A DNA stretch of 64,000 bases from Rhizobium lentis (GTDB lineage: Bacteria; Pseudomonadota; Alphaproteobacteria; Rhizobiales; Rhizobiaceae). Made by a program: the position numbers and the translations under genes. Below are positions 198 to 31,688 of this stretch, piece by piece (position 1 is the stretch's first letter; each line of letters begins with the position of its first letter). The stretch is from NCBI RefSeq assembly GCF_014200175.1, contig NZ_JACHBD010000011.1:124001-188000 (forward strand), written 5' to 3'. A model generated the notes under the pieces. It searched no databases. It was not told the origin of the DNA and saw nothing but the letters and a program-made list of their open reading frames with translations.

Positions 198-207
198 GCG
201 AGGGCTG

Positions 208-12620: not shown

Positions 12621-12621
12621 G

Positions 12622-13758: not shown

Positions 13759-13768
13759 GGTGATCGAT

Positions 13769-15436
<1,668 letters not shown>

Positions 15437-15458
15437 TTATCGAATGCCGGAGGCACTA

Positions 15459-16829
15459 ATGGCAGCAAATCCCAAAATCACCTTCATCGGAGCAGGTTCC
15501 ACCGTCTTCATGAAGAACATCATCGGCGACGTGTTGCAGCGTCCGGCGCTCTCGGGCGCAACGATCGCCCTTATGGACCTCAATCCGCAGCGGTTGGAAG
15601 AAAGCGGCATCGTCGTCAACAAGCTGATCTCGACGCTCGGCGTCAAGGCCAGGGCCGAGACCTATTCCGACCAGCGCAAGGCGCTGGCCGGCGCCGATTT
15701 CGTCGTCGTCGCCTTCCAGATCGGCGGCTATGAGCCTTGCACCGTCACCGATTTCGAGGTGCCGAAGAAATACGGCCTGCGCCAGACGATCGCCGACACG
15801 CTCGGCGTCGGCGGCATCATGCGCGGCCTGCGCACCGTGCCGCATCTCTGGAAGGTCTGCGAGGATATGCTCGCCGTCTGCCCCCAGGCGATCATGCTGC
15901 AATATGTCAACCCGATGGCGATCAACACCTGGGCGATTGCGGAGAAATACCCGACCATTCGCCAGGTCGGCCTCTGCCACTCGGTGCAGGGCACGGCGAT
16001 GGAGCTTGCCCACGATCTCGACATTCCCTACGAGGAAATCCGCTACCGCGCCGCCGGCATCAACCACATGGCCTTCTATCTCAAATTCGAGCATCGCCAG
16101 GCCGACGGCTCCTACCGCAACCTCTATCCCGATCTCTTGCGCGCCTATCGCGAGGGCAGGGCGCCGAAGCCCGGCTGGAACCCGCGCTGCCCGAACAAGG
16201 TGCGCTATGAGATGCTGACGCGGCTCGGCTATTTCGTCACCGAAAGCTCGGAGCATTTCGCCGAATACACGCCCTATTTTATCAAGGAGGGCCGCGATGA
16301 CCTGATCGAGAAATTCGGCATCCCGCTCGATGAATATCCGAAGCGCTGCATCGAGCAGATCGAGCGCTGGAAGGGCCAGGCGGAGGCCTACCGCAGCGCC
16401 GACAAGATCGAGGTTCAGCCATCGAAGGAATATGCCTCCTCGATCATCAACTCGGTCTGGACCGGCGAACCCTCGGTGATCTACGGCAACGTCCGCAACA
16501 ATGGCTGCATCACCTCGCTGCCGGAAAATTGCGCCGCCGAAGTGCCCTGCCTCGTCGACGCCTCCGGCATCCAGCCGACCTTCATCGGCGACCTGCCGCC
16601 GCAGCTGACCGCGCTGATCCGCACCAATATCAACGTGCAGGAGCTGACGGTGCAGGCGCTGATGACCGAAAATCGCGAGCACATCTACCACGCCGCGATG
16701 ATGGATCCGCACACCGCCGCCGAACTCGACCTCGACCAGATCTGGTCGCTGGTCGACGACCTGCTCGCCACCCACGGCGACTGGCTGCCGGAATGGGCCC
16801 GCACCTCCAAGAAAGTCCAGGCCGCCTGA
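15459..16829 (+). CDS. agaL2: Family GH4 alpha-galactosidase, second copy
   Basis: 456 residues from ATG 15459, preceded by GGAGGC; an ATG at 15444 is in frame but covers that site. GH4 marks: GAGSTVFMKN dinucleotide loop, and metal ligands in GLCHSVQGT and GINHMAF. It is clearly homologous to the first gene of the operon but well diverged, so the two may split substrates (for example melibiose against raffinose or stachyose). Last gene of the agp operon, followed by a terminator. Confidence 0.9.
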   Translation: MAANPKITFIGAGSTVFMKNIIGDVLQRPALSGATIALMDLNPQRLEESGIVVNKLISTLGVKARAETYSDQRKALAGADFVVVAFQIGGYEPCTVTDFEVPKKYGLRQTIADTLGVGGIMRGLRTVPHLWKVCEDMLAVCPQAIMLQYVNPMAINTWAIAEKYPTIRQVGLCHSVQGTAMELAHDLDIPYEEIRYRAAGINHMAFYLKFEHRQADGSYRNLYPDLLRAYREGRAPKPGWNPRCPNKVRYEMLTRLGYFVTESSEHFAEYTPYFIKEGRDDLIEKFGIPLDEYPKRCIEQIERWKGQAEAYRSADKIEVQPSKEYASSIINSVWTGEPSVIYGNVRNNGCITSLPENCAAEVPCLVDASGIQPTFIGDLPPQLTALIRTNINVQELTVQALMTENREHIYHAAMMDPHTAAELDLDQIWSLVDDLLATHGDWLPEWARTSKKVQAA

Positions 16830-16856
16830 CCGCCTCTCCCTGGTCGGGCATCAAGG

Positions 16857-16888
16857 AGCCCCGCGGTGGCAACAACCGCGGGGCTTTT
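16857..16888 (+). terminator. Intrinsic terminator of the agp operon
   Basis: AGCCCCGCGGT and ACCGCGGGGCT form a perfect 11-bp stem around GGCAACA, followed by TTTT (16885-16888), 27 bp after the agaL2 stop. Confidence 0.85.
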
Positions 16889-16925
16889 GCGTGGGGAAAC
16901 CCGTCGGCATCAAACGCCGGAAACT

Positions 16926-17225
16926 CTAGATCCCCGATCCATCGAGCTGCTCGTCGTCATCGCCTTCCCAGGGCGAGGGCATCGAGGTGCGATTGGCCGA
17001 GGGCATCGGCATCCAACACTTCAACTCCGGCTCGGCATATTCGATAATGTGCCCGGGCGAAGAATCCGAGGCGCGCCAGCCTTCTCCCGCGAATTGATCG
17101 CCATGCGACCAATAGGCGAGATCAACCTCCGCCGGCCCCTGCTCGGACGCCCGGATCGTCACCAGGATCCGGCTGCCGTCCTTCGGTGCGGTTGCCATAT
17201 TGCGCCAGCGGTCTGGTTCATCCAT
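16926..17225 (-). CDS. Small tryptophan-rich conserved protein
   Basis: 99 residues with a strong AGGAGG before the ATG. The segment MATAPKDGSRILVTIR followed by several tryptophans (YWSHG, GWRAS, CWMPMP) resembles the short DUF551-like fold found in phage and bacterial genomes. No function is known. It is convergent with the agp operon. Confidence 0.7.
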   Translation of the reverse strand: MDEPDRWRNMATAPKDGSRILVTIRASEQGPAEVDLAYWSHGDQFAGEGWRASDSSPGHIIEYAEPELKCWMPMPSANRTSMPSPWEGDDDEQLDGSGI

Positions 17226-17406
17226 CGATTTTCCTCCTGCCTTGCTGCTGGTGCAAGTGTTGCCTTGTCATCGAAGGCGGTCAACCCAAACTTTGCGGAG
17301 CCCGCCCTCGTCTGTCCGATCCAAAGAATCTTTCCTGATCAATTCTCTTCAAACGGAAGATGCAAATGCGGTATCTGAACCGATCTGGTCGTGCTACGCA
17401 TCGGAC

Positions 17407-18317
17407 ATGGGATTCGGGGTCTTCATCCACCGCTCAGATTCGATCTACGACGACAGCCCGGCAGAACAATATCAGTTCCCGACTCAATATCTCGGTCGCG
17501 TGCAAGCTTGCCTCGGAGACTGGATTATTTATTACGAGCCGCGCAAGGTTGCGGTGACCCGCGGCTATTTTGCTGTCGCCAAGGTAGCCAAGGTCATTCC
17601 GGATCCGAAGGCGTCCGGCATGTATCTGGCACTCATCGAGCCTGGCAGTTACCTCGATTTCGTCAATGCCGTTCCGTTTAGCGGGCCGGACGGTGTGATT
17701 GAGCGGGGGGTGCTGAATGAGGAGCGGCGGATTTCCGGTCGAGCACAGGCCGCTGTACGCCCGATATCCACTGCAGATTTCAATCGGATCGTGTTGATTG
17801 GCTTAGATGAGCATGAGCCTGAGCTGCCTCGGTTGGATGAGCCAGGAGCAGCGCCCCGTGCCGACGGATTTGAAGACAGAGCTCAAGCGCTCTTCACATT
17901 CGACCACGACCGCGATCGAGTTATGCAGCTGTCGTCGCGGATAGTGCGCAATCGGCTATTTCGTCGACTTGTGCTGCAGGCCTATGACAAACGGTGCGCA
18001 ATCACCGCCTGAAGCTGATAAACGGCGGCGGGCGTGCGGAAGTCGACGCTGCGCATATCCGCCCCGTGGAGGCAAATGGACCCGATATTCTCACGAACGG
18101 CATTGCTCTTTCTGGTACCGCACACTGGATGTTCGACCGCGGGCTGATCGGCCTCTCGGATGAACTCGATATCCTAATCTCCCGGCAAGCCAACGATCGG
18201 GAAAGCGTCCGAAGCCTGATCAACAAGTCTGGAAAGGCGATTGTGCCGCCCCGGCAGTTCGAGCGGCCACATCCTCATTTTCTCCAGTGGCATCGCCAAT
18301 ATTGCTTCAAGCAGTAG
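17407..18317 (+). pseudogene. HNH endonuclease gene broken by a frameshift
   Basis: From ATG 17407 (MGFGVFIHRSDSIYDD) the frame runs to KRCAIT and then hits TGA at 18010-18012. The expected continuation, LKLINGGGRAEVDAAHIRP, is in the next frame and runs to a stop at 18315-18317. Adding one base after ATCACC would restore CAITG-LKLINGG and the full HNH core (C, AAHIRP, NGIALSGTAHWMFD). So one base is missing near 18004-18007. Restored length would be about 303 residues. No good ribosome site is visible before 17407. The family is probably a putative restriction-type or housekeeping endonuclease of unknown target. Either a true decay mutation or a sequencing error. Confidence 0.8.
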
Positions 18318-18796
18318 CAAAGACAGCCCGGATCGTTTGAGCCGTTAGTGCCGAGAGAGCTACCTAAAAACCGCCGCTGCCGACGAGCGTTTTAGAGGCC
18401 TTCTGCCGCGCTATAGACCAAGTCATTTACCGCCCGCTTGCCAAAAAACCGTAATTGCGTCACCTAAATCACCCATCGACAGAGCTGGCATAAGAATTGG
18501 ATCCACGCTGAATGCGCATAGCATGCGTTTTTCTTGGTGCATTTCTTGTCATACGAAACGTCTATCGGCGCGGCGGCCTGCATATTGAGCAATCCTATCC
18601 TCCGATAGGTGCTAGTTACGACGTGCGGGAAGTCCAAATCCAATATCGTTGAGTTTCGATAGGCATTACTTATCGGGAGGCGTTGCCGCCAATCAGGTCA
18701 AAAGCGTTGTCAAACCGAACACCTCTGGCGCCTTGCAGCGGTTCAGGGCATCCTATGATGGCTGAAAATTGTGTTTTGGCAGTTGGAGGAATGCCG
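18318..18796. other. 479-bp gap holding a truncated copy of the protease gene start
   Basis: No gene of its own. Bases 18414-18548 match the promoter and first codons of the protease gene at 28.5 kb (listed separately). The copied start codon opens a frame (MRIACVFLGAFL) that soon leaves homology and ends. The rest, 18549-18796, shows only the inverted pair CTATCGG (18562-18568) / CCGATAG (18602-18608). Confidence 0.6.
18414..18548 (+). repeat. Left copy of a ~135-bp direct repeat (5' end of tail-specific protease gene)
   Basis: Aligned without gaps to 28455-28589 at a constant offset of 10,041 bp. The core 18433-18548 differs at 7 of 116 positions by my count; the 19 bp to the left are weaker (7 mismatches). 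The copy includes the promoter region, the ATG (18512-18514) and about 12 codons, then similarity stops abruptly. It is a relic of duplication or of insertion of the 10-kb stretch in between. Confidence 0.85.
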
Positions 18797-20758
18797 ATGC
18801 GCTGCTTTACCGTGCTTGGACCTTCGCAGACCGGAAAATCGACAGTCGTGGAAAAGCTCGGCTCGCTGGAGGGGACGCCGAGAAAATCCAGCTCCCCTTA
18901 CGGATTGAACCTCACAGAGTTCACCTTCGGAAACGAGGCGTGGTGTGCACTGGATGCGCCAGGACCCAACGAAGCGTTGGCGCATGCGCAGCACGCGCTT
19001 CTTGCCAGCGACGCCTGCATATTGTGCGTTTCATCGGCACCCGAGGAGGCTGTGCTCGCCGCGCCCTATCTCAGGATAATCGAGGCCTCGGGGACGCCTT
19101 GCATCCTCTTCGTCAACCGGATGGACGAACCGAGAGGGCGGTTGAGGGACGTGATCGCCGCGCTTCAAGACTACGCCAGCCACACCCTTTTGCTTCGCCA
19201 GATCCCGATCCGCGAGGGAGACAGGATCATTGGCAGTTGCGATCTGATTTCGGAGCGGGCGTGGCGCTACCGGGAAGGCCAGCCTTCGGCGCTTATCGCA
19301 ATCCCCGAAAGCACTGCCGAACGCGAGCACGAAGCGCGCACCGAGCTCCTGGAACACCTGTCCGAATTTGATGACTGGCTTCTCGAGGAACTGATCGAGG
19401 ACCGCGAGCCATCCAGCGACGCGCTCTATGCCATTTCATCACGGGTTCTCAGGGAAAACAGAATTATCCCGGTCCTCATCGGTGCTGCAAGTCACGGCAA
19501 CGGCATGATGAGGCTGATGAAAGCGCTGCGCCACGAGTCGCCGCCGGTCGGGATTCTCAGGCAGCGTCTCGCTCATGCGGGAACTGTCGATGAAGGCAAG
19601 CTGGTGGCCGTGAGCTTCCATGCCTATCATCGCCAGAATGTTGGCAAGACGGTGCTCGTGCGCGCACTTGGCGAGGGACTGCGGCAAGGCGCATCGCTCG
19701 GCGGCTCCAGCCTCGGCGCCGTCCAAAATCTCGCAAACGGGCGGTCCAATTCGGCGGTTCTGCCTGCGCCGGGAGATGTCTTCGCGGCGGTCAAGTCCGA
19801 CCATCTGCCCGTCCCTTCGCTGTTAGCCTCCGGCGCGGTGGTCGCCCCGCCTGAGTGGACGGAACCGCCGACGCCGATGCTTGAAAGGATCCTGGTTCCG
19901 GGCAGCGAGCGCGATGAAAACAAACTTTCCGAAACGCTAGCGAAACTGTCCGAGACGGATCGCGGTCTGAAAGTCTTGCAGGAGGAAGGCACGGGCGCTC
20001 AACTCGTCCGCGCCCAAGGACCGGTGCATCTGCGTGATCTCTGCCGAACGCTGGCGGAAGTCTTTCACATCACGGTGACCGACCGAACGCCAAGCCCGAT
20101 CTACCGAGAGACGATCGCGAAACCATCGGAGGTTCATTACCGCCATCGCAAACAGACCGGCGGTGCCGGGCAATTCGCGGATGTGAAGTTGAGCATTCAC
20201 CCCAACGAGCGCGGCCAGGGCTTCACCTTTGGCGAAACCGTCAAGGGCGGCGCCGTTCCGCGCAATTACTTCCCCGCCGTCGAAGCGGGGGCGCGCGAAG
20301 CGATGGAGAAAGGACCGCTAGGCTTCGAAGTCATCGATGTCGGCGTAACGCTGTTGGATGGTCAGCACCATGCCGTCGACAGTTCAGAACACGCCTTCCG
20401 GACTGCGTCGAAAATGGGGGTGCGACAGGCGCTTTCTGAAGGATCGCCCGTCTTGATGCAGCCGGTCTTCCGCACCGAGTTCCACATCCCGTCGGTCTAT
20501 TCAGGCAGCCTTGTCCAGATCGTCGCTGCTCTCAACGGTCAGGTTCTCGGCTTCGACCGTGATGAAACCGCCAAGGGATGGGACATCTTCCGGGCGCTCG
20601 TTCCGGGCGGCGCACTTGAAGATCTGGCGCGGGCGCTGCGCTCGGCGACGCAGGGCATTGGTTATTTTTCCAAGACCTTCGATCACTTCGAGGAACTATA
20701 CGGCAAGGAAGCGGACGCCATTGTGAAGGCAAAGGAGAAAGCAGGCACCGCCCACTGA
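18797..20758 (+). CDS. Elongation factor G-like GTPase
   Basis: 653 residues from ATG 18797, with GGAGGA six bases upstream. It has the EF-G domain order: a GTPase domain with P-loop GPSQTGKST (8-16), then a beta-barrel domain II, the RNA-facing domains III/IV (HYRHRKQTGGAGQFADV) and a domain V tail. The GTPase domain is reduced: the switch-I region with the canonical RGITI is absent, the G3 motif reads DAPGP instead of DTPGH, and G4 reads NRMD instead of NKMD. This matches the EF-G-like proteins that accompany normal EF-G in alphaproteobacteria. A canonical translocation role is doubtful; a ribosome-linked stress or recycling role is possible. Confidence 0.85.
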   Translation: MRCFTVLGPSQTGKSTVVEKLGSLEGTPRKSSSPYGLNLTEFTFGNEAWCALDAPGPNEALAHAQHALLASDACILCVSSAPEEAVLAAPYLRIIEASGTPCILFVNRMDEPRGRLRDVIAALQDYASHTLLLRQIPIREGDRIIGSCDLISERAWRYREGQPSALIAIPESTAEREHEARTELLEHLSEFDDWLLEELIEDREPSSDALYAISSRVLRENRIIPVLIGAASHGNGMMRLMKALRHESPPVGILRQRLAHAGTVDEGKLVAVSFHAYHRQNVGKTVLVRALGEGLRQGASLGGSSLGAVQNLANGRSNSAVLPAPGDVFAAVKSDHLPVPSLLASGAVVAPPEWTEPPTPMLERILVPGSERDENKLSETLAKLSETDRGLKVLQEEGTGAQLVRAQGPVHLRDLCRTLAEVFHITVTDRTPSPIYRETIAKPSEVHYRHRKQTGGAGQFADVKLSIHPNERGQGFTFGETVKGGAVPRNYFPAVEAGAREAMEKGPLGFEVIDVGVTLLDGQHHAVDSSEHAFRTASKMGVRQALSEGSPVLMQPVFRTEFHIPSVYSGSLVQIVAALNGQVLGFDRDETAKGWDIFRALVPGGALEDLARALRSATQGIGYFSKTFDHFEELYGKEADAIVKAKEKAGTAH

Positions 20759-20908
20759 AACGTTGGCGCCATTTCAAGGCGCTCAAGCACGGTCGGATCG
20801 AACCGAGTTCAAGAGCGGCAAGGCAGTCGGGAATCGGTGTCGGTGAATTGAGCAAGGAACCTTCGAAGGGGGCGAAACGTTATGCGCCTCATTGCTGGAG
20901 ACTGGCTA

Positions 20909-21772
20909 ATGTACATCGTTGTTGGCGGGACGGGCCACGTCGGTTCCGTCGTGGCGCAGACACTGCTCGATGAGGGCGAGGCCGTTACCATCGTCACGCG
21001 AGACCGTGAGAAGGCCGGCGGATGGCAACGGCGGGGCGCGGAGGTGGCCGTCGCCGACGTCCACGACGTAGCCTCGCTGCGTGAGGTGTTCCGCCGCGGG
21101 AAGCGGGCCTTCCTACTGAACCCGAACGCTGACATTTCGAGCGATACGGATCGGGAGGAACGCGAGACTGTGCGCTGCCTGCTTGAGGCGATCGAAGGGT
21201 CCGGACTGGAGAAGGTCGTGGCGCAATCAACCTTGGGCGCCCAGCCGGGCAAGGAATCCGGCGATCTCAACGTCCTTTACGAACTGGAAGTGGGCCTGAG
21301 GAGCCAGCCGATTCCTGCCAGTATCATCCGTGCAGCCTACTACTACAGCAATTGGGATAGGATGTTGGAGTCTGTCATGAGGGACGGGGTGCTATCGACC
21401 ATGCTCCCTGCCGACCTCAAGCTCCCGATGGTCGCGCCGGAGGATCTGGGAAGGGTGGCGGCGCGGCTCCTGCAGGCGCCGATCGAACAGATCGGCGTAT
21501 ACCCCGTAGAGGGGCCGGAACGGAACTCCCCCAATGATGTCGCCGCAGCCTTCGCTGCCGCACTCGGCCGGGCGGTTCGCGTCGACGTGATCCCGCGTGA
21601 AACCTGGGAAGACGCATACCGCAGCTTGGGCCTCTCCGACGCGGCGGCTCGATCATATGCAAGGATGACGGCTCTCACGGCTGACGGTCCCGAATATCCC
21701 GAGGATCCAATTCGAGGATCGATCTCGCTCCAGACCTACATAGGCAAGCTCGTCGCGGCTAAAATACCATAA
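20909..21772 (+). CDS. NmrA-like NAD(P)-binding protein
   Basis: 287 residues from ATG 20909, where the typical start MYIVVGGTGHVGSVVAQTLL begins and GGAG lies 8 nt upstream; an ATG at 20882 with GGGGG upstream is an alternative. The GGTGHVG loop binds the dinucleotide; the atypical SDR/NmrA fold lacks a Tyr-x3-Lys pair in the usual place. Relatives sense NAD(P) or reduce quinones or small molecules. The last codons and stop lie in a 24-bp stretch that matches the repeat at 28.5 kb. Confidence 0.82.
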   Translation: MYIVVGGTGHVGSVVAQTLLDEGEAVTIVTRDREKAGGWQRRGAEVAVADVHDVASLREVFRRGKRAFLLNPNADISSDTDREERETVRCLLEAIEGSGLEKVVAQSTLGAQPGKESGDLNVLYELEVGLRSQPIPASIIRAAYYYSNWDRMLESVMRDGVLSTMLPADLKLPMVAPEDLGRVAARLLQAPIEQIGVYPVEGPERNSPNDVAAAFAAALGRAVRVDVIPRETWEDAYRSLGLSDAAARSYARMTALTADGPEYPEDPIRGSISLQTYIGKLVAAKIP

Positions 21773-21782
21773 TTGCGCCACC
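21759..21782 (+). repeat. Short third copy of the repeat core
   Basis: Matches 28482-28505 at 22 of 24 positions, including the uninterrupted 17-mer ACCATAATTGCGCCACC. It spans the stop codon of the NmrA-like gene. Confidence 0.5.
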
Positions 21783-21830
21783 ACCGCCGCCAGCCCGTGG
21801 GGCTATCCTTTGAGGTGAGTGATTGCTGAC

Positions 21831-22142
21831 TCAATCCTTAAGGCGGTCCATATTGCGAGACCAAGGGAAAGAAATCACCGGTTTCTGCGCAACGGGCGTA
21901 TGTTCGCTTGGTGCTTCCTGTTCAGCAGATCCGGCATCGCGCAGTGCCTCGCGAAGGGCCTGACCTTGCGGATGATCGCCGAAGTGCTCCAGGAAGCTCG
22001 AAATCGGCCATCTCGTCTCCGTGCCGCCGGAGGCGTCGTTGGCGTGATGGATCACGATATGCTGGTCCGCGGTTTCGGTATGAGCGAGATACCATTTGTC
22101 TCCGTTTGCGCTCGCTGCGAATTCTTTTGGTGCTTCTGGCAT
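21831..22142 (-). CDS. Small conserved protein of unknown function
   Basis: 103 residues; GAGGAGG stands at good spacing before the ATG. The sequence (WYLAHTETADQHIVIHHAN, then TRWPISSFLEHFG) is compact and without transmembrane or signal segments. No domain assigned. It is convergent with the NmrA-like gene. Confidence 0.7.
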   Translation of the reverse strand: MPEAPKEFAASANGDKWYLAHTETADQHIVIHHANDASGGTETRWPISSFLEHFGDHPQGQALREALRDAGSAEQEAPSEHTPVAQKPVISFPWSRNMDRLKD

Positions 22143-22487
22143 TCCAGCCTCCTCTGATGGTGCCCATTATTGTGCCGCTTCCCGGCGCACTGTCGCCCAT
22201 TTATGGTTCGGCAAGTGCAGCAAAGGGGATCGAGTGAACGGCTTGGCCGCTCTGCCGGGCGACCCCGATGATATATCAAAGCAGCAGATACATCTGCCGG
22301 GGGCATTCCGACGCCGTGTCACTGAGTTGCAGGTAGTTCATGCGCGGAGAGTCGATGACTTCCTGCGCCGCCGACGCTTGCGCCAAGGGCGATGAGAAGC
22401 TCGTCCAGCTGTTCGAACTGCTCCGACATGCACCTGCCATCCGGGTGGCAATGGCTTCGTCGAATTAGTAACTCACCACGCGTCTGT
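22143..22487. other. 345-bp gap
   Basis: No convincing gene. It contains the probable promoter of the leftward 103-residue gene. Several frames are open but have no ribosome site and no recognisable family. Confidence 0.5.
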
Positions 22488-22796
22488 TCAAGCGCCGGTG
22501 GGCGACTTAACCACAACGGCTGATCGGATCCCCTGTACCCGCTTGCGATTTTTTTCGAACTCCGCGGATGATTTCGAGGACAGTGGTGTTTTTCCAAAGT
22601 GCCGGCTGAGTTCGATGGAAAGGGCGGCGGGCGAGGTCATTCCATCATTATAGAGATTGAACAGCAATTTGACCGCGATGTTGTAATATTTCGGATCTGC
22701 GAGGCTACTTGTGGAATCGTATCCGGCGTCGTCGAGGACGCCTTGCAATACAGCCAGGTCAGAGGTCCGCACGGAGATGTTGAGATTGGAAGACAT
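22488..22796 (-). CDS. Small protein of unknown function with shared leader
   Basis: 102 residues from ATG 22796; AAGGAGG lies 5-6 nt upstream, deciding the start over a frame open to 22829. It has a helical N-terminal part (LAVLQGVLDDAGY) and a basic end (EKNRKRVQGIR). Its leader and first three codons are nearly the same as those of the 40-residue gene at 23446, although the two proteins are otherwise unrelated. Unknown function; possibly a stress protein by context. Confidence 0.7.
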   Translation of the reverse strand: MSSNLNISVRTSDLAVLQGVLDDAGYDSTSSLADPKYYNIAVKLLFNLYNDGMTSPAALSIELSRHFGKTPLSSKSSAEFEKNRKRVQGIRSAVVVKSPTGA

Positions 22797-22826
22797 GCTG
22801 TCCTCCTTCAATTTGGGGCGAAGGGA
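22788..22826 (-). repeat. Leader repeat, copy A
   Basis: About 39 bp shared with 23438-23475 (four mismatches and a one-base indel): TCCCTTCGCCCCAA, a short variable part, AAGGAGGACA and the codons ATGTCTTCC. Covers leader, ribosome site and start. Confidence 0.6.
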
Positions 22827-23036
22827 CAACCGACCTCCACGCAGTAGCGCCCTGAGAAACAGCTACTGAAGATGCATCCTGCGCCTAATCAATGCGGCTG
22901 GCAAACTAAATATTCCGGGGTAGCAGGAAGCGGTCAGGCTTATGCGTTCGAATGTAGTTATTCTCGCAATCATCGTTTCCCGGTTCGATAGTCACCGCGC
23001 CAAAAGACGTTCCTCGCTGAATCGCCCGCGGCGTCA

Positions 23037-23336
23037 TCAATTTTTCTTGTCCGCAGGCGGGTGCACAGCTCGCGTGGCGCCTCCTTCGTTTTCCCATGAT
23101 GCCAAAGCCTCAGGATCGGCATGCAGCTTCCGCCGCCTCGAAGAGGGGTAGGTGGGCGCCGGGATCGTCGCCGCCCTGATGCGTCTAATCACCATCACCT
23201 CTTCGTGATGGTCGCCATTTTCCGAAGCAACGAGATCTGTCGTCGCATAGTCCGCTCGCTTGAGGATGGACCGCAGCCGCCAATTCTCGTCGCGTTTCGC
23301 AGCAGTTCCAGTCGTGATGATTACTACCATAACCAT
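23037..23336 (-). CDS. Possible small basic protein
   Basis: 99 residues, starting inside the end of the 40-residue gene (13-bp overlap). The start is hydrophobic (MVMVVIITTG) and the rest is charged, with many arginines. No domain, weak ribosome site; the open frame may be chance. The overlap hints at an operon with the upstream gene. Confidence 0.3.
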   Translation of the reverse strand: MVMVVIITTGTAAKRDENWRLRSILKRADYATTDLVASENGDHHEEVMVIRRIRAATIPAPTYPSSRRRKLHADPEALASWENEGGATRAVHPPADKKN

Positions 23337-23446
23337 CCTCTCAAAATTAAACTAATGATGACGGCGAAGCTCGCCAGGATGGAAGCCCTGAATAAGAAGT
23401 CGCCGTAAGCCACGGTATGGGAAGAGTGCTTGAAGGTGGAAGACAT
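23324..23446 (-). CDS. 40-residue single-span membrane protein
   Basis: ATG 23446 with AAGGAGG upstream, and the same leader as the 102-residue gene. The product is MSSTFKHSSHTVAYGDFLF followed by one hydrophobic helix (ASILASFAVIISLILRGWLW), so a small inner-membrane protein with its N-terminus probably inside. It resembles the class of tiny stress-linked membrane proteins; function unknown. Confidence 0.55.
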   Translation of the reverse strand: MSSTFKHSSHTVAYGDFLFRASILASFAVIISLILRGWLW

Positions 23447-23475
23447 CTTGTCCTCCTTTGATTGGGGCGAAGGGA
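23438..23475 (-). repeat. Leader repeat, copy B
   Basis: Partner of 22788-22826. Both copies place the same ribosome-binding site and the same first codons in front of different proteins. Confidence 0.6.
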
Positions 23476-23738
23476 GCCACCCTTTGATCGGCAGCGCCCG
23501 TTTCATTGGCTGCCGATATGCGAATATGCGCCTCCATTGCGCTTTATCCAAGGCAAAAGCGACGAACGCTGTGCAAGGCGCCTCTATAATTTTCCGTCCC
23601 GGGGCCACTCGGTCACGGGGCGAGAGGCTCGGGCTCTGTCTTAGCTCGTTCGGCGACGACAACAAGTTGACGGCCGCGATAATACCGGGCGGCCCCGAAT
23701 TGAATCCTACTTTCGCCGCCTGTGTGATATAGTCTCTT

Positions 23739-23954
23739 ATGACCTATTCTCCGAAGGACCTGGAACTCGCGCGCCGGCAAGTGATTGTCGACCGGCAGAT
23801 GATTTGCGCTCAGCAGGGCCTGATCGACGGAATGCTGGCGCGAGGCGAGCCTGCCGGGCTGGCCAGGGAAAGGCTGGTCAAGTTGACAGAGGATTTGCGC
23901 AACCACTGCTTCCATCAGGATCTGATTCAGGCGTCGATCCGATTGGAGCGCTGA
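23739..23954 (+). CDS. Small helical conserved protein
   Basis: 71 residues, nearly all helix, with a repeated charged pattern (LELARRQVIVDRQMICAQQG, then LARERLVKLTEDLRNH). No clear ribosome site before the ATG, yet codon use looks genuine. No function known. It is convergent with the gene at 24000-24365. Confidence 0.55.
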   Translation: MTYSPKDLELARRQVIVDRQMICAQQGLIDGMLARGEPAGLARERLVKLTEDLRNHCFHQDLIQASIRLER

Positions 23955-23999
23955 GCCAGCCGCCGCCCACGGGGGGCGGTCGGCGGGTCTAATCCTTGT

Positions 24000-24365
24000 T
24001 CACTCACCAGCTTTTTCGTCACGCTCCTCGGCACGCCTCTCGGATTCCCGGGTGGCGATCTTCCTGCTGTGATCGGTCCGCGCCTGCTCGAGTTCACCCA
24101 TTGTAGGAAGATCCCGGACAGCAAGACTCTTATCTTCGGCCTCAGGGCTTCGGCGCTTTGTGAACCGATGCCGCGGGTTCTTTGCTTCACGCAGTTCGTC
24201 AACTGCGCGCGCTTCCTCGGACGGCACGGCGAGGTCGGTGCGTGCGGCGACGGCATGGGCGATCAATTCCTTCGCGGAGGGATTGCCGTCCGGACGCTTG
24301 CCGTTAGCGCCGAAGTCGTTTCGGTCACTTGCGGTAGGGGGCTTGGCGTTGTTATGTCTCGACAT
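24000..24365 (-). CDS. Highly charged, probably disordered protein
   Basis: 121 residues from ATG 24365 with AAGAGGC upstream. It is rich in Arg, Glu, Asp, Lys and Ala and almost free of hydrophobic core residues, hence probably disordered or nucleic-acid/protein binding. The C-terminal half (RTDHSRKIATRESERRAEER) could form a charged helix. No family recognised. Confidence 0.6.
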   Translation of the reverse strand: MSRHNNAKPPTASDRNDFGANGKRPDGNPSAKELIAHAVAARTDLAVPSEEARAVDELREAKNPRHRFTKRRSPEAEDKSLAVRDLPTMGELEQARTDHSRKIATRESERRAEERDEKAGE

Positions 24366-24816
24366 TTGAAGGCCTCTTTTTCATGAAGTCATGAGCCTGC
24401 CGTTCGCGCGGGACGCGCTTTCGCGGCCGACTTCCTGCTTGTCGAGCAGGCGGGCGAAGGTAGTGTATATTTCTGCAAAATCCGATCTTTTGAATTGCGG
24501 TATCTTGTATTTCATGAAAATAGCGCAAGAAAAAGGCGAATAAGGCTCTATTGGATGGCTAGTTTAATTTAGATTTTCTACCAATAATATTTTAAACTTG
24601 ACCAATCGAGTCTAAATAAAACCTTCATTTTAGGATTTTGTCCCAGTTGTGACGCAATTGGGGCGTAAGAGTCCCCTGTCGTCGTTTGGCCCTGTGGTTC
24701 TCGTCCGTGTCAAAGAGTTGAACACCATCATCGCTCCGAATTCCGATCGCCATGCCAATGCCCTTTAGGAAGTATTAGCGGGCCTTGGCTAACCGCCTTC
24801 AACTGGAGCTGTCACC
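24366..24816. other. 451-bp AT-rich intergenic region
   Basis: No gene. Bases about 24470-24640 are clearly richer in A and T than the surroundings (runs such as AATAATATTTTAAACTTG). It probably holds promoters for both divergent neighbours, but I could not fix one. Confidence 0.5.
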
Positions 24817-25107
24817 ATGTCCGACCTATCCTCCACACGCACGACGGACACCATCGTTCACTTCTCCGCCCCTTTCGCGCTTCCCGATCTTGTTGGTGAG
24901 GTGCATCCGGCCGGCGATTACAAGATCGCGCAGGATGAGGAGCGGATCGAAGGCCTGTCGTGGCTTGCCTACCGCCGCACCGCAACCTACATTCATCTGC
25001 CGTCGATTGCGCAGGGCAACCGCTTGCGCAGGATCGTCCGGATCGAGCCGACGGCGCTCGCTGATCTCTTGGCGGCGACGAATGCGACGCAGGAGCTGTC
25101 CCGATGA
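24817..25107 (+). CDS. Small conserved protein upstream of zeta-like gene
   Basis: 96 residues, start preceded by GGAGCTG. It contains the pattern FALPDLVGEVHPAGDYKI and a middle part with Tyr/Arg (WLAYRRTATYIHLP). Its TGA overlaps the ATG of the next gene (ATGA), so the two are translationally coupled. Function unknown; probably acts with the DUF1476 protein. Confidence 0.72.
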   Translation: MSDLSSTRTTDTIVHFSAPFALPDLVGEVHPAGDYKIAQDEERIEGLSWLAYRRTATYIHLPSIAQGNRLRRIVRIEPTALADLLAATNATQELSR

Positions 25108-25427
25108 ACGCCATCGAAAACCGTGAGAAAGCGCTGGAGGAGATCTATTTCCTGAACTCGGAAATGGCCTTCAAGGTGCGATCGCGCCGCGACCGTCTAC
25201 TGGCGGTCTGGGTCTGCGGCATAACAGGCGCTGCCGATGTCAAAGCCTATGTCGGAGAGATCGTCGATCTCAGGATGTCAGGGGCTGACGATGAAGCCGT
25301 GATTGCCAAAATCCTTGCAGATTTGCGCTCGACCGGAAATGATCTCGATGAAAGAGCCTTGCGGGAGCGCATGAAGACTTTGAGCGTTGCCGCCACGCAG
25401 GATATCGCCCGGCAACCCTCTTTATGA
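25104..25427 (+). CDS. DUF1476 protein, paralog of the F1Fo-ATPase inhibitor zeta subunit
   Basis: 107 residues, the usual length of the family. It shows the DUF1476 order: ENREKALEEIYFLN, then KVRSRRDRLLAVWVCGITG, then a four-helix pattern ending in DDEAVIAKILADL. In alphaproteobacteria the zeta protein inhibits ATP hydrolysis by the F1 ATPase. This copy is away from any ATP synthase gene and has diverged at the N-terminus, where the inhibitory helix of zeta lies, so it is probably a stress-linked paralog rather than the housekeeping inhibitor. Confidence 0.78.
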   Translation: MNAIENREKALEEIYFLNSEMAFKVRSRRDRLLAVWVCGITGAADVKAYVGEIVDLRMSGADDEAVIAKILADLRSTGNDLDERALRERMKTLSVAATQDIARQPSL

Positions 25428-25533
25428 TCGGGAGATCCATCTGCCGCTGGCGAAAGCTGTCCCGGGTTTGGCTAGCGGCCGGGCCGGAATACGACGCAGC
25501 CGCGCCATGGAAATAGTGCCGGACGGACTTGCC

Positions 25534-25800
25534 TCATAAATCCGGCGACAGTTCATTGTGAACCTTGCGCACGCCGTTGGTTCTCAGTGTAATCTCCTCG
25601 GCCCGTGACACCTCCGCTTTCAAATGCACCCATCCGGCCAGCGTGATGTCGCGGCCGTGCGCGGTGACGAAGATATAGCTGGGGTCGAGATCGCCGGCAT
25701 GGGCGAGCGCGCTGTAGACGGCCGATTCAAGATCGCCCTGGTCGGGACAGCGGGTCGCCACGCGGCCCGCGACACTGAGGTGTTTTCTGTCGACTGACAT
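25534..25800 (-). CDS. BON-domain protein
   Basis: 88 residues from ATG 25800 with AGGAGC upstream. One BON domain: LESAVYSALAHAGDLDPSYI, the central glycine strand VTAHGRDITLAGWV, and EITLRTNGVRKVHNEL. BON domains bind membranes or lipids and are common in osmotic-stress proteins such as OsmY. No signal peptide is visible, so this copy probably stays in the cytoplasm. It lies 38 bp after the DUF1488 gene and is probably co-transcribed with it. Confidence 0.82.
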   Translation of the reverse strand: MSVDRKHLSVAGRVATRCPDQGDLESAVYSALAHAGDLDPSYIFVTAHGRDITLAGWVHLKAEVSRAEEITLRTNGVRKVHNELSPDL

Positions 25801-25838
25801 GGGTTCGGCTCCTGCACGGCCTTTCCGGGTGTAAAAGT

Positions 25839-26105
25839 CTACCGGCGTATATCCTGCGCCGTCAGGGTATATCGGTCTTTGCCGCTGCGGCCGTAGGCAT
25901 GGGTCGCCGCTTCCAGAATGATCTCGCGCGCCATGTCGAAGGCTCTCAGGCACTCGTCCTCGGAGCGGCCGGGCTGGCTCGCGGTCCGCAAGGCGTTAGC
26001 TTCGACCAAAAACCGCACTTCGAACATGCCGTCATAACCGGAGAAGCGGACCGCATTCCGGCTCTCATCAAAACTGCGGCTTTTATTGGGAAAGGTCAGT
26101 GTCAC
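25839..26105 (-). CDS. DUF1488 family protein
   Basis: 88 residues starting at GTG 26105, with GGGAGAG upstream. The start MTLTFPNKSRSFDESRNAVRFSGYDGMFEV has the family pattern FPN-x-SR...VRF-x-GYD, followed by VEANAL and a helix CLRAFDMAREIILEAA. The function of DUF1488 proteins is unknown. It forms a pair with the BON gene. Confidence 0.8.
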   Translation of the reverse strand: MTLTFPNKSRSFDESRNAVRFSGYDGMFEVRFLVEANALRTASQPGRSEDECLRAFDMAREIILEAATHAYGRSGKDRYTLTAQDIRR

Positions 26106-26398
26106 GCATTCTCTCCCGGATGGTCATTAATGCCATGCATTAGGACTGTAGCAAGAACATGTTGTTGGGGACGAAGTAGCCGGTCTCGCCTGAGGCGCGG
26201 CAAGGCTGCTCAAACTGCCGGTGTGCTACGGATGCACACCATCATCCTCGGGTCGCCCGAATTCCCGCGAACGGCTGCACTTCGCAGTTCCGCTCCTCTA
26301 GAAATATAGGGCGCGGCATTCGAATTGCAATGTAGGGGCCGGGTGGCCAGAATCTGCCGAGAGCGTGGGAGGCGCCGGACAGGGACTTCCGCTGCTCT

Positions 26399-27172
26399 TT
26401 AATCGCTCATGCAGGCACCACTGCGAAGCTGGTACGGACGATTGCAGTCCCAGCCGTTGCCCGCCGAGTTAAGATGTGCGTTTTCGGGAAGCTTGACCTG
26501 CAGGCATTGATTGCTCGTCATCTCGAAGCCTCGGTCGCATTTCCATTTTTGCCCGTGGGACGTGTCGACGAAGATGGCATTCTCCGGAACCTGGACGGCG
26601 GCACACGCCTGATCCTTCTTTTCAAAGCCTCTATCGCACCTCCACTCATTTCCGCCGGTTGTCAGATAGGCGCGGGCAGGGAGTTCGAGCTTGAGGCATG
26701 CTTGTTGTGTCGCGCGATAACCTCTTTCGCATTCCCAGCCGGATTCTGTGGTGTTATCGGACAGGAATGCTTTCTCCGGGACTTTAATAAGGTCGCAACC
26801 CACATTGGTTTGACGGTAACCACGCAGGCATTTCCAGCGGTCGCCGGAAGATGGGTCGAGATATGCATTGGTCGGGATTTGGACGGTGAGGCACTGGTCC
26901 CCCTTCTCGAGAAAGCCGTAATGGCAATCCCAGCCATTGCCAAAGGAGGAGTTCGTCAGAAACGCGTTGGCTGGAGGCTGCACCTCGAAGCAGGTGTCAT
27001 CCCGCCTTCGAAAACCACGATTGCATTCCCAGCCGGAGCCGTATCGGCTTGCCTGGGCATTTTCAGGCACCGGCCTTGCGGTCTGGCCGAACGCCGAGGA
27101 GCTGAGCCCCGATGCAGATTGCAGGAGGACGGTCATCGTGAGGGCCAGCGCCCTGTAATATGATTGGCGCAT
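26399..27172 (-). CDS. Secreted protein with seven Cys-containing tandem repeats
   Basis: 257 residues from ATG 27172 (GGAG 8 nt upstream); an upstream open stretch is ignored. A signal peptide ends near SSAFGQ (residue ~31). The rest is six complete and one partial repeat of 31-33 residues with the pattern G-x-x-W-x-C-x-R-G-[FY]...C-x-x-[VL]-x-[VLP]-P-x-[NKR]-A-[YFIH]-[LF]. Each repeat has exactly two cysteines, suggesting one disulfide each, so a rod of small units in the periplasm or outside the cell. I do not know a function. Confidence 0.75.
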   Translation of the reverse strand: MRQSYYRALALTMTVLLQSASGLSSSAFGQTARPVPENAQASRYGSGWECNRGFRRRDDTCFEVQPPANAFLTNSSFGNGWDCHYGFLEKGDQCLTVQIPTNAYLDPSSGDRWKCLRGYRQTNVGCDLIKVPEKAFLSDNTTESGWECERGYRATQQACLKLELPARAYLTTGGNEWRCDRGFEKKDQACAAVQVPENAIFVDTSHGQKWKCDRGFEMTSNQCLQVKLPENAHLNSAGNGWDCNRPYQLRSGACMSD

Positions 27173-27902
27173 GAGTTGTCTCCAAGGGCCTGCATCTGCA
27201 ATCTCCAGGTCCGGATTCCGAGATACAACGCTGATGGTTAAAGAGGGAAAGACAGATACGGTGCTACCAGAGCCTTGGCTTTTTCTCGGGAGCTTTCTGA
27301 GGAAAAATGGGCGTCGGCCGTATCTCATGACCGACAAGTGACGAGCCATGAAGTTGCCGTCTCTTGCGAACCATCGGAAAGGCTCTATGGACTTCCCGAT
27401 TGCCCGGATTGTGCTTGCTTTCGCCGTTGGCGTTCAGGAGCATTTTCTGGAAATAAAGCAGGAAGCAGGCATGTGAGGATCGGGACGTCATCGCGTCCTC
27501 CTCTTGTCGGGGCTAGGGCGCGCACATGTCCCTCAGGCGGCAGCGCCCTGACCAGTTGCAGCCGATATCGCACCCTGGACTTCATTTCCGCCTTTGGCAA
27601 GCAAGGTTTTGCGATTCATGTGGTGCGTTGAAAGAGGCTGATCAAACCCTTATATAAACTGCACGTTTTCAGCCTTTCGGCTACCTGATCCCGGCCGCGT
27701 CGGTTGCTTGGCAAATCCTGATTCTGCGAACGTTTCGAACTTCACCATACTGGCTGCAGCGGTTTGGAGGCGAGACATACGCCAAGATGCAGCAGCTTCT
27801 GTCGGAACGGTTGGCCTGACTTGTGTTTTCCCATGATACCGCAGACAGGACGGTGATGATCAAACTGTCCTCGACAATCGCTCCAATCGCAAGGATTAGG
27901 TT
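27173..27902. other. 730-bp region without a confident gene
   Basis: Several open frames exist but none has a ribosome site plus family support. At 27713-27819 one rightward frame gives a protein-like tail (LRTFRTSPYWLQRFGG, then ETYAKMQQLLSERLA, stop TGA 27817-27819) with no start codon, possibly the remnant of a lost gene. Confidence 0.5.
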
Positions 27903-28148
27903 ATGACCGTTTTTGACTATAGTGCCGGCGCGGGGCTTTACCCGTGCAAGACAATCAACAGAAAAAGCAGGCTCGGTTACATAAGGTTCGATTCCGTCGC
28001 CGAAGCCCTTCGCTTTGCGATCGAGGACATGCCGGCCTCGCTCCTTCGAGGATCCGTGCTCGAAGTCGAGGAGGCGCGCTTCGATGGTTTGCAGATGCGC
28101 AAACTCTATGAAGCCGAGGCATATCCGCTGACGCGCCGGAAGTCGTGA
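27903..28148 (+). CDS. Small conserved protein of unknown function
   Basis: 81 residues from ATG 27903, with AAGGATTAGG upstream. The sequence (MTVFDYSAGAGLYP, then INRKSRLGYIRFDSVAEALR) has a mixed alpha/beta look and ends basic. No domain known to me. It is the last small gene before the protease repeat. Confidence 0.65.
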   Translation: MTVFDYSAGAGLYPCKTINRKSRLGYIRFDSVAEALRFAIEDMPASLLRGSVLEVEEARFDGLQMRKLYEAEAYPLTRRKS

Positions 28149-28552
28149 GGCGGTGGTGCCAATGCGAGCTGCGGCGCGAACAAGAGGCGAGTATTATTAA
28201 CTCAGGTTGTGTTCGCTCTTGGCGTTTCCAGCTTCGAAGGCCAGCTGGTTTTGCGGCATTCCGGAACGACACCAGCTTGCTGCTTCGACAGCGGCCTCGC
28301 GCAGGTTTTTCAACATATCCATCATTGCAAACAGGTAAAAATTTCCAGGCTAGCCTACGAATTTATTACAGCAGAACCCGTAATAACGGGGTCGTTAGTC
28401 CTGGACGACTCGTTCCGGTTCATGGCCTCCCGGCCGAATACTAAAATGGCTCCCTAGACACACCCATTTGCTCCCCGCTTGCCAAAAAACCATAATTGCG
28501 CCACCTAAATCACCCATCGACAAAGCACGCATAAGAATTGGATCCACGCTGA
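28149..28552. other. 404-bp gap before the protease gene
   Basis: No gene. The last 98 bases belong to the right copy of the direct repeat and should contain the protease promoter; a CATAAT at 28491-28496 is a possible -10 box. Confidence 0.45.
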
Positions 28553-28589
28553 ATGCGCATAGCCTACGTTTTTCTTGGTGCATTTCTTG
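28455..28589 (+). repeat. Right copy of the ~135-bp direct repeat
   Basis: Intact parent copy: upstream region plus the first 12 codons of the protease gene. Partner of 18414-18548. Confidence 0.85.
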
Positions 28590-30670
28590 CAATTGCGCCG
28601 TCCGCATATGCTGAAGTTGCACCGCCGCCTGTTTTGAAGCCGCTGGAGCGGCAGGCGGATGCGGCTTTGTTGAGCGCGCAGTTTCTGTCGCGCTACAGCT
28701 ACAAGCCGGTTGCGCTCGATGACGCCTTGTCGGCGAGGGTGATGGATGGGTTCATCAAGTCACTGGATCCCGACCGCATGCTCTTCCTGCAGGCCGATAT
28801 CGACAAGTTCATGGCGGACCGCAGCAAGATCGACGATGCGATCGAACGGAAGGATCTGACAATCCCGTTTGCGATCTTCAATGCTTATGAGCAGCGCGTT
28901 GCCGATCGCATGACCTATGCGCGCAGCCTGCTGAAGCAAGGGTTCGATTTCAGCGTGAAGGAAGATTATGCGGTGCTGCGCGAGAAGGCGCCATGGCCGC
29001 AGTCAGAAGCCGAGAGCGACGAGCTTTGGCGCAAGCGCGTCAAGAGCGACTGGCTGCGGCTGAAACTCGGCGGCAAGACCGATGCCGCCATTCGCGAAAC
29101 GCTCGACAAGCGTTATGAAAACACGCTCGAGCGCGCCTACAAGTTCAAGAGCGACGATGTCTTCCAGTCGTTCATGGACGCCTATTCAAACGCGATCGAT
29201 CCGCACACGGATTATTTCGGAGCGGCCGCTTCGGCCGATTTCAATGTCTCGATGAAGCTGTCGCTGTTCGGTATCGGCGCGGTGCTGCAGGAGCGCGACG
29301 ATTACACAACGATCCGTGAGCTCGTGCCCGGCGGGCCGGCGCAGCTCTCCGGCAAGCTTGCCGTCGGCGACCGGATCACCGGCGTCGGCCAGGGCAAGGA
29401 CGGGCCGATCAAGGAAGTGGTGGGCACGCGCCTCGATGAAGTCGTGCAGATGATCCGCGGCAAGAAAGGCTCCGTCGTACGCCTGGATATACTGCCGGCC
29501 GATGCCGGCGCCGATGCCACGCATCGGGTCGTCAGCCTGGTGCGCGATAAGATCAGTCTCGACAAGCAGGCCGCCAAGAAGACGGTACTCTCAGTCAAGG
29601 CGGGCGAAGCCACCCGCAAGATCGGCATCATCACCCTGCCGGTTTTCTATGAGGATTTCGAAGCCAAGAACAAGGGCGACAAGGATTATAAGAGCGCCAG
29701 CCGCGACGTCGCCAAGCTGCTCGATGAACTGAGCCAGGAGAATGTCGACGGCGTCCTCATCGATCTGCGCAACAATGGCGGTGGCTCGTTGGACGAGGCG
29801 ATCGATCTCACCGGCCTCTTCATCGGCAAGGGCCCGGTCGTCCAGCAGCGCGCCAGCAATGGCAAGATCGCGGTGAAGAGCGCCGAGTTTGCAGCCCCCG
29901 CCTGGACAGGCCCGATGGGCGTGCTGATCAATCGCGGCTCGGCTTCGGCTTCGGAAATTTTTGCCGCCGCCATCCAGGATTACGGGCGCGGCGTCATCAT
30001 CGGCGAACCGAGCTTTGGCAAGGGTACGGTGCAGACGGTCGTCGATCTCGACGAGGTAGTTCACAACAGCAAGCCCGAGCTCGGCGAGCTGAAGGTGACG
30101 ATTTCGCAGTTCTTCCGGGTCAATGGCGGCACGACGCAGCTGCGCGGCGTCACCCCTGATATCAGCTTGCCGGGCTTGTCCGATCCGACGAGCTTCGGCG
30201 AGACGAGCTATGACAATGCCCTGCCTTGGGCAGAGATCAAGCCGGCGAAATATACCCCGGAAGACGATGTCACGGCTCTGCTGCCGGCCCTGCATAGCCG
30301 TCATGACGCGCGGGTCAAGAGCGATCCGGATTTCCAGCGTCTGATCGAGGACATTGCCGAGCTGAAGGCGCAGCGCGAAAAAGGCGTCGTGTCGCTGAAT
30401 GAAGCCGAGCGCCGCAAGGAAGCGGCGGCCCGCGAGAAGCGGTTCAAGGACCGGGCCGAGGCGAGCGACGGCGAGGATCCGACCGGCGATGACGGCCTGC
30501 AGTCGGACGAGCGTAGCCTGAGCGCCGATATCGCCATGGAAAACGCCCGCAAGAAGGCCAAAGACGTCCTGCTCGACGAGGCGGCCGCCATTGTTGGCGA
30601 CCAGGCGGATTTGCAGCAGGGCGGCGTCAAGGCAGCGACGACACAAACGGGAAAGCCCAAGGGAAAATAG
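28553..30670 (+). CDS. prc: Tail-specific (C-terminal processing) protease, S41 family
   Basis: 705 residues, close to the length of E. coli Prc. A signal peptide ends at SAYA (residue 20). An N-terminal helical domain follows, then a PDZ domain (about 240-330), then the S41 catalytic core with the Ser motif GSASASE near 463 and Lys in FGKGTVQ near 490; the glycine-rich IDLRNNGGGS precedes them. A charged C-terminal extension ends in Lys-rich sequence. It trims or degrades periplasmic proteins from their C-termini and affects cell-wall and osmotic tolerance. No clear ribosome site before the ATG. Its 5' end is duplicated 10 kb upstream. Confidence 0.92.
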   Translation: MRIAYVFLGAFLAIAPSAYAEVAPPPVLKPLERQADAALLSAQFLSRYSYKPVALDDALSARVMDGFIKSLDPDRMLFLQADIDKFMADRSKIDDAIERKDLTIPFAIFNAYEQRVADRMTYARSLLKQGFDFSVKEDYAVLREKAPWPQSEAESDELWRKRVKSDWLRLKLGGKTDAAIRETLDKRYENTLERAYKFKSDDVFQSFMDAYSNAIDPHTDYFGAAASADFNVSMKLSLFGIGAVLQERDDYTTIRELVPGGPAQLSGKLAVGDRITGVGQGKDGPIKEVVGTRLDEVVQMIRGKKGSVVRLDILPADAGADATHRVVSLVRDKISLDKQAAKKTVLSVKAGEATRKIGIITLPVFYEDFEAKNKGDKDYKSASRDVAKLLDELSQENVDGVLIDLRNNGGGSLDEAIDLTGLFIGKGPVVQQRASNGKIAVKSAEFAAPAWTGPMGVLINRGSASASEIFAAAIQDYGRGVIIGEPSFGKGTVQTVVDLDEVVHNSKPELGELKVTISQFFRVNGGTTQLRGVTPDISLPGLSDPTSFGETSYDNALPWAEIKPAKYTPEDDVTALLPALHSRHDARVKSDPDFQRLIEDIAELKAQREKGVVSLNEAERRKEAAAREKRFKDRAEASDGEDPTGDDGLQSDERSLSADIAMENARKKAKDVLLDEAAAIVGDQADLQQGGVKAATTQTGKPKGK

Positions 30671-30690
30671 GGTCCGCGCCGCGCGAGGGA

Positions 30691-30752
30691 TAGCGTAACG
30701 GCGATATCTTTGCGATGCTTGTAAAGATGGTGTCGTTACGCTATTTGTAAAG
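30691..30752. promoter_or_regulatory. Candidate operator of the toxin-antitoxin pair
   Basis: TAGCGTAACG (30691-30700) and CGTTACGCTA (30734-30743) are perfect 10-bp inverted arms 33 bp apart. TTGTAAAG is repeated directly at 30719-30726 and 30745-30752. The site ends 20 bp before the antitoxin start, where autoregulation by the antitoxin or the complex is expected. Confidence 0.55.
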
Positions 30753-30771
30753 CTCCACATAGGAGTTTTCC

Positions 30772-31559
<788 letters not shown>

Positions 31560-31688
31560 AGCCGGCGGCGGCGCGCTGTTTGTTGACGTTTCCGTAATCA
31601 CGGGAGGCGCCTTTGCTTGCCGCAGCCGGCCCTTTCCTCATAGGATTTCTGCGCCATGTCATGCCAGGACAACCAGACAGGGTACGGT

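Follow-up and report, generated by a model that had tools for sequence, protein, structure and literature searches.

In this study, we examined the DNA upstream of prc, the gene for a tail-specific (carboxy-terminal processing) protease, in Rhizobium lentis (assembly GCF_014200175.1). The sequence analysed is a stretch of 64,000 nucleotides of contig NZ_JACHBD010000011.1 (positions 124,001 to 188,000 of the forward strand), hereafter called the window and numbered from its first letter. An earlier note, made from the sequence alone, had drawn attention to a 10-kb segment lying between two copies of the prc 5' end and had proposed that it arose either by an insertion that duplicated its target or by an unequal recombination that left a gene stump.

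A truncated prc copy upstream of the intact gene

The intact prc gene encodes a protein of 705 amino acids with TSP_NTD, PDZ, Peptidase_S41 and DUF3340 domains (Pfam). Its 5' end occurs a second time further to the left (Table 1), and realignment bore out the earlier description of the pair: the two copies match without gaps at an offset of 10,041 bp, with 7 differences in a core of 116 bases. The flank at 18414–18432 matches only weakly, and in BLAST comparisons the left copy starts anywhere between 18401 and 18438, depending on the relative. With the A of the ATG taken as offset 0, the left copy spans prc from offset -79 (weakly further left) to +36, and consists of upstream DNA and 37 coding bases, which begin with the ATG at 18512 and make up 12 codons plus one base; there the match ends. 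In the 6.59-Mb genome, the 135-bp copy and the whole prc region each match these two places alone; as the left copy also matches prc with an E value of about 5e-45, a chance similarity is excluded. Of the promoter, ATG and 12 codons that the earlier note had assigned to the left copy, the ATG and the codons stand, and about 75 bp 5' of the ATG are conserved among relatives; a sigma-70-type promoter was recognised neither in the left copy nor in the right one. The same null result bears on the idea that the stump is a duplicated promoter driving the EF-G-like gene to its right, for which neither copy offers a sigma-70-like promoter.

The 10-kb segment appears to be composite

The locus can be read as a row of modules, denoted F, H, E, N and S, followed by prc (Table 1). 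H is frameshifted into two open reading frames (17200–18012 and 17994–18317) and has an intact homologue in strain IE4771, to which the two frames are 94% and 89% identical and H as a whole 92%. Past offset +36, the left copy turns into DNA that in R. bangladeshense 1002 (G008) forms the spacer between F and the EF-G-like gene, a type of spacer present in two of 148 genomes, namely this one and G008. The seam thus formed joins prc to E-side DNA without long homology, as an illegitimate joint would. The EF-G-like GTPase named in the earlier note is confirmed by NCBIfam model NF009379 (854.6 bits against a cutoff of 513). At the right end of N, a scrap of prc upstream DNA, identical at 22 of 22 positions to that of G015, G067 and BT03 and at 21 of 22 to that of the window's own prc, supplies the last codons and the stop of the NmrA-like gene, and therefore its C-terminus differs from that of relatives.

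Pfam was applied to 14 open reading frames of 18.6–28.2 kb (8 + 6), some short frames lying outside this set, and no integrase or transposase family was found among the 14, in agreement with the earlier note. Its description of the segment as rich in small orphan genes needs qualification, in that some of them belong to Pfam families (ATPase inhibitor zeta, BON, DUF1488). Because E, N and S are distributed separately among relatives and a prc scrap lies inside, the 10 kb appears, judged from these comparisons, to be built of several distinct pieces and not to be a single mobile island.

Within S, positions 25104–25427 encode a homologue of the F1 ATPase inhibitor subunit zeta, and 26399–27349 a 316-amino-acid protein of repeated Cys-containing units, for which Pfam gives a borderline EGF-like match only. 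Directly 3' of prc (30772–31559) lies a pair of genes for a TacA-like antitoxin (PF08681) and a GNAT acetyltransferase.

Table 1. Features of the prc locus in the window and of the loci compared with it (window positions, unless given as prc offsets or as genome, contig and position)
Feature	Position or locus	Strand	Basis or remark
F, left-flank block: gene for a 99-amino-acid hypothetical protein (16926–17225) with the DNA upstream of it; forms the left boundary of the putative hotspot	16926–17302	-	upstream of prc in 39 of 114 loci
H, HNH endonuclease gene	17407–18317	+	PF13391 on the second open reading frame
P', truncated prc 5' end	18433–18548	+	109/116 identical to 28474–28589; second of two genomic copies
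Seam, prc stump to spacer upstream of E	18549–18553		homology to the G008 F–E spacer from 18553
E, EF-G-like module	18553–20776	+	coding sequence to 20758; start 18797 if length is as in relatives
N, NmrA-like gene	20852–21772	+	PF05368; homology to relatives stops at 21760
P'', scrap of 22 bp from upstream of prc, offset about -69 to -48	21761–21782	+	at the N/S joint
S, small-gene module: ATPase-zeta homologue, BON, DUF1488, Cys-rich repeat protein, others	21792–28171		upstream of prc in 9 of 114 loci
Right repeat copy, 5' end of intact prc	28474–28589	+	alignment with the left copy
P, intact prc	28553–30670	+	Pfam and NCBIfam
prc fragment, BT03 (L036)	offset 389–448
prc fragment, G018 (L039)	offset 161–438		contig breaks inside the stump
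prc fragment, G004 (L041)	offset -10 to 458
prc fragment, IE4771 (L165)	offset 309–458
prc fragments, CIAT652 (L170)	offsets 38–248 and 309–428
F–E cargo loci	L165, L166, L167, L168, L169, L231–L236		PADLOC
F–E cargo: type IIG enzyme	IE4771		PADLOC
F–E cargo: IetA + IetS	R620		PADLOC
F–E cargo: PbeC/DndD	N831		PADLOC
F–E cargo: Dsr1	R630		PADLOC
F–E cargo: LmuB	R744		PADLOC
F–E cargo: RdrA + cytosine methylase	N841		PADLOC
F–E cargo: RmrA	IE4803		PADLOC
F–E cargo: Aga/Avs2-like + viperin-like	CC511		PADLOC
F–E cargo: weaker matches	K102, Kim5, N161		PADLOC
S copies in G004, and compared L243	G004:C5:201449-204520; G004:C6:101-110 kb; L243		flank comparison

Stumps, empty sites and readable seams in other strains

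A search of 148 Rhizobium genomes gave 135 with a match to the prc 5' region. We fetched 95 loci from genomes and 18 from named plasmids, which makes 113, or 114 with the window; about 40 of the 135 prc-matching genomes, mainly more divergent ones, lie outside the fetched set, 29 of 80 named loci were compared, and two loci (L039 and L040) are halves of one locus in G018. Most loci extend for about 16 kb on the upstream side of prc and for about 1 kb on the downstream side, and some are shorter. Strong prc fragments, defined as matches outside prc with E < 1e-10, were found in five of the 113 other loci, so that stumps are visible in 6 of 114 when the window is included. Those of the five other loci all lie upstream, in the orientation of prc, and come from offsets -10 to 458 of 2118, that is the first 22% or so of the gene.

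The modules are found apart from each other. E lies upstream of prc in 24 of the 114 loci and, like S, mostly occurs there without stumps; E without S is found in G008, G055 and many R. phaseoli plasmids, and S without E in G004 and G018. Short fragments of the EF-G-like gene also occur elsewhere (G009:C1:3161225-3161749, G042:C22:27162, G109:C4:131236 and G002:C4:269669), and in G002 only a few hundred bases separate a 3' fragment of it from the prc gene downstream. Where F precedes prc, it does so at 528 to 24,188 bp, and in six loci (L051, L073, L077, L196, L200, L241) F stands directly beside prc at 528–531 bp; these we call empty sites. H is upstream of prc in the window and in IE4771 only; in IE4771, the two are separated by a gene for a type IIG enzyme and by fragments of prc and of F. 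The F–H pair also occurs in G084, G038 and G080 (within the 1.5-kb flanks read). Hence the arrangement that the earlier note had suggested looking for, an HNH gene directly next to a single prc copy, was not encountered among the 114 loci. Nor do all relatives share the window's arrangement, which the earlier note had taken as the mark of an old fixed duplication: a stump from -79 to +36 beside E is present in none of the 113 others.

Several of these strains retain seams that can still be read. In IE4771 and CIAT652, prc runs to an offset of about 454 and then into a second, partial F (from about 17146 in window numbering), followed by E, and by their order of modules both loci appear to be two concatenated versions of the locus. 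At this prc/F seam TCGGA is common to both sides (prc offset 450–454); among random pairs of prc and F positions, at least five common bases were seen in 0.57% of 200,000 draws. The G004 stump breaks off at 458; S comes next, and its flank resembles the one found at S copies on other replicons (those compared being from R. lentis p1, CFN42, G107 and G004 itself), with AGCC common to the two sides of the joint. The stump and the intact prc of G004 are 99.4% identical over 469 bp, and gene conversion is likely to have acted on this pair. The stump also begins 534 bp from F, as against 528–531 bp in the six empty sites by the same measure, and therefore sits at the position that prc has in an empty site. 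BT03 has the same stump–S joint in trimmed form, and the window retains the S side of this joint beside its 22-bp scrap. Two different seams thus have nearly the same break point in prc, both falling at offsets 450–458 (L036, L041, L165, L170). Taken over all loci, the stump ends vary (+36, about 454 and 458), as do the lengths (22 to 469 bp), and the seams outside the window share 4–5 bp.

S is known from other sites as well. In R. lentis p1 it adjoins thiamine-synthesis genes, and the prc site, on another record, is empty (L196). G004 has two copies of S: one precedes prc, and the other occupies a site with a flank that matches the thiamine-side S of R. lentis p1. The inserted S of G004 is 92.5% identical to that of Kim5 and 89.8% to that of the window, as against 81.0% to the second copy of G004, and for this reason it was probably acquired from elsewhere.

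Defence-like cargo, replicon and mosaic ancestry

The interval between F and E holds different cargo in 11 strains. Fifteen of 20 cargo proteins, and all 11 strains, match PADLOC models at E <= 1e-5, for strains and proteins that were chosen by annotation and models that have no cut-offs, some of the matches being weak; the remaining five of the 20 proteins have no PADLOC match. In N261, Bra5, G055 and G008, F stands beside E without such cargo. By its gene content, the site would therefore qualify as a defence hotspot, with different defence-like genes between the constant flanks F and E/prc.

In strain CFN42, prc lies on a 505,334-bp contig equal in length to record NC_007765, which we take to be p42e. 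The genome that contains the window has five matches to Ku, two of them adjacent (G000:C11:210853-212280) and about 23 kb to the right of the window on the same contig. As two adjacent ku genes are placed on p42e of R. etli in passages of PMC10932983, the window's contig is probably p42e-like.

The nearest relative is not the same on both sides. Positions 12000–16891 are 97–99% identical to R. sophoriradicis CC511/Kim5 and mostly 94–97% to the other strains compared, and positions 30000–32585 are 95–97% identical to the R. phaseoli-type strains R620/N261/CIAT652 and 92–94% to CC511/Kim5. The locus is thus a mosaic whose nearest relative changes inside the hotspot. By similarity, the DNA belongs with the R. 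etli/phaseoli/sophoriradicis group.

Discussion

We consider it probable that the repeated prc start was left as a scar when DNA was imperfectly exchanged at a site where relatives carry different defence-like genes. The left parent of this exchange would have been a hotspot allele of the order F-H-prc, present on the replicon, and the other an allele of the order E-N-S-prc; unequal, illegitimate recombination between these two versions of the locus would then have left a prc stump where they were joined. The exchange may have been anchored by homology in or beyond prc, either in homology-facilitated illegitimate recombination or in a template switch, and stumps formed in this way may later serve as homology for further cargo. 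S may have been added by copying from another replicon, through a template switch or one-ended recombination, a step that fits because G004 has both copies. Of the two origins considered in the earlier note, unequal recombination agrees in kind with the stumps with other break points in five loci, with the empty sites, with the short homology at two other seams and with the change of nearest relative from one side of the locus to the other; a single inserted island does not agree with the separate E, N and S and the scrap between them. We infer that the window's own seam arose by such a joining of alleles. F-H-prc and E-N-S-prc could have been joined directly to give the arrangement in the window, or this could be the deletion product of an array like that of IE4771.

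A number of observations weigh against this reading. The F-H-prc allele assumed for the left parent was found in none of the 114 loci, and no clear microhomology is present at the window's seam. The closest match of the left copy is the right copy (109/116), with R. binae barely behind (108/116), and because the two are near-equal, the left copy gives no clear pointer to another allele; the 7/116 divergence was on the same grounds rejected both as a clock and as proof that the donor was foreign. Already at F, which is 92–95% identical to all strains compared, the nearest relative begins to change, and therefore several exchanges would be needed. That strong fragments lie upstream only is seen in loci which mostly reach about 1 kb past prc, and seven weak prc matches (24–55 bp, E 2e-5 to 9e-4) are scattered over the offsets, one of them downstream; these seven look like background.

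Going further, the stumps might be functional parts of a stacking cycle that does without a transposase, each stump serving as homology arm for the next allele, whose cargo-prc would pair with it, while defence cargo piles up on the upstream side, and offsets 450–458 might be a preferred break or template-switch point; we offer this as speculation and think it rather unlikely. End joining by Ku and LigD was considered as a source of the microhomology seams. It is possible, given the five Ku matches, and was not adopted because the ends of deletions made by non-homologous end joining in R. etli are described as lacking microhomology in passages of PMC10932983.

The best of the rival explanations is a local tandem duplication, in which the region from F or a neighbour to the prc 5' end was doubled within one replicon when sister copies exchanged unequally at short repeats; the left cargo was later swapped or deleted so that a stump remained. 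Such an event would give the order F-cargo-prc'-F'-E-prc of IE4771 and CIAT652, and TCGGA is shared at their joint. As the order F-H-stump-E of the window is the same as in IE4771, the window may be what a deletion in such an array would leave. However, the two units have different cargo in every stump-bearing locus, which means that an exchange of alleles is needed anyway, a locus with two equal units was not seen among the 114, and the duplication does not bring S from another replicon. We give it a clearly lower probability than the exchange between alleles, with only a small chance of being the origin of the stump.

Less probable again, and improbable in our view, is a one-step insertion of the 10 kb upstream of prc with a target duplication of 116–135 bp. 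A precedent exists in Helicobacter pylori, where insertion with long target duplication has been described for restriction-modification genes (Nobusato et al., 2000, Gene; here from passages of PMC1643837 and PMC3154945). The likeness, as far as those passages describe it, lies in a large insert, long direct target repeats, the lack of a transposase and the link to restriction-modification; the prc site likewise has direct repeats around foreign-looking DNA (116 bp with 109 identical in the window, 469 bp at 99.4% in G004) in a locus rich in restriction and defence genes. For G004 and G018, an insertion of S that duplicated about 470 bp does fit, because the prc copies are 99.4% identical, and the six F–prc empty sites would suit G004. 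In the window, however, the copies differ at 7 of 116 positions, the segment is composite with an inner prc scrap, several stump lengths occur across species, E and S are upstream of prc mostly without stumps, and neither a single-copy site with H nor the F-H-prc target was found in 114 loci. A site-specific mobile element integrating at the prc 5' end, with the repeats as attachment sites, would account for the position of the repeat over the start of a conserved gene and for the intact state of the gene downstream, but is very improbable and was rejected, as no integrase is present among the 14 reading frames tested and the fragments vary in end and length, unlike a fixed attachment core.

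The pattern is also close to systems other than the one in H. pylori, from which the prc site departs in that E, N and S do not behave as one unit. Homology-facilitated illegitimate recombination, as treated in PMC3240628 and PMC2884548, offers a proposed likeness in combining one homologous side with one illegitimate joint and no mobile element; the difference is that the process is here read from present-day seams, and that the nearest relative changes across the locus without a located crossover. The same process is suggested by the authors of a study on effector–immunity arrays of the type VI secretion system in Vibrio cholerae, in a passage of PMC5361080. According to that passage, successive allelic insertions there leave remnants of displaced genes, as at prc, but those remnants are immunity genes, whereas the prc stumps are 5' ends cut from a housekeeping-type gene in the flank. 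Hotspots of gene exchange and defence between core genes, as outlined in PMC5635113 and PMC10250203, share the fixed flanks (here F on one side and E with prc on the other) and the changing defence-like cargo; the site described here is on a Rhizobium secondary replicon, and prc stumps remain as visible seams in 6 of 114 loci. With both of these, homology-facilitated recombination and core-gene hotspots, the pattern agrees in part. We found no published description of the prc-side hotspot or of its stumps in the open-licence papers searched.

Hotspots at which defence genes are exchanged between fixed neighbours are well known; their joints are usually clean, so that the mechanism has to be guessed. 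Here, the joints can still be read in several strains from truncated copies of the same flanking gene, and empty sites, partial arrays and a donor site on a different replicon add to the picture. A word of caution also follows: accessory DNA with a gene stump at its side is not necessarily a mobile island. With the joints still legible, the recombination steps at such a hotspot can be put to the test, both from sequence and experimentally, in a legume symbiont that is tractable.

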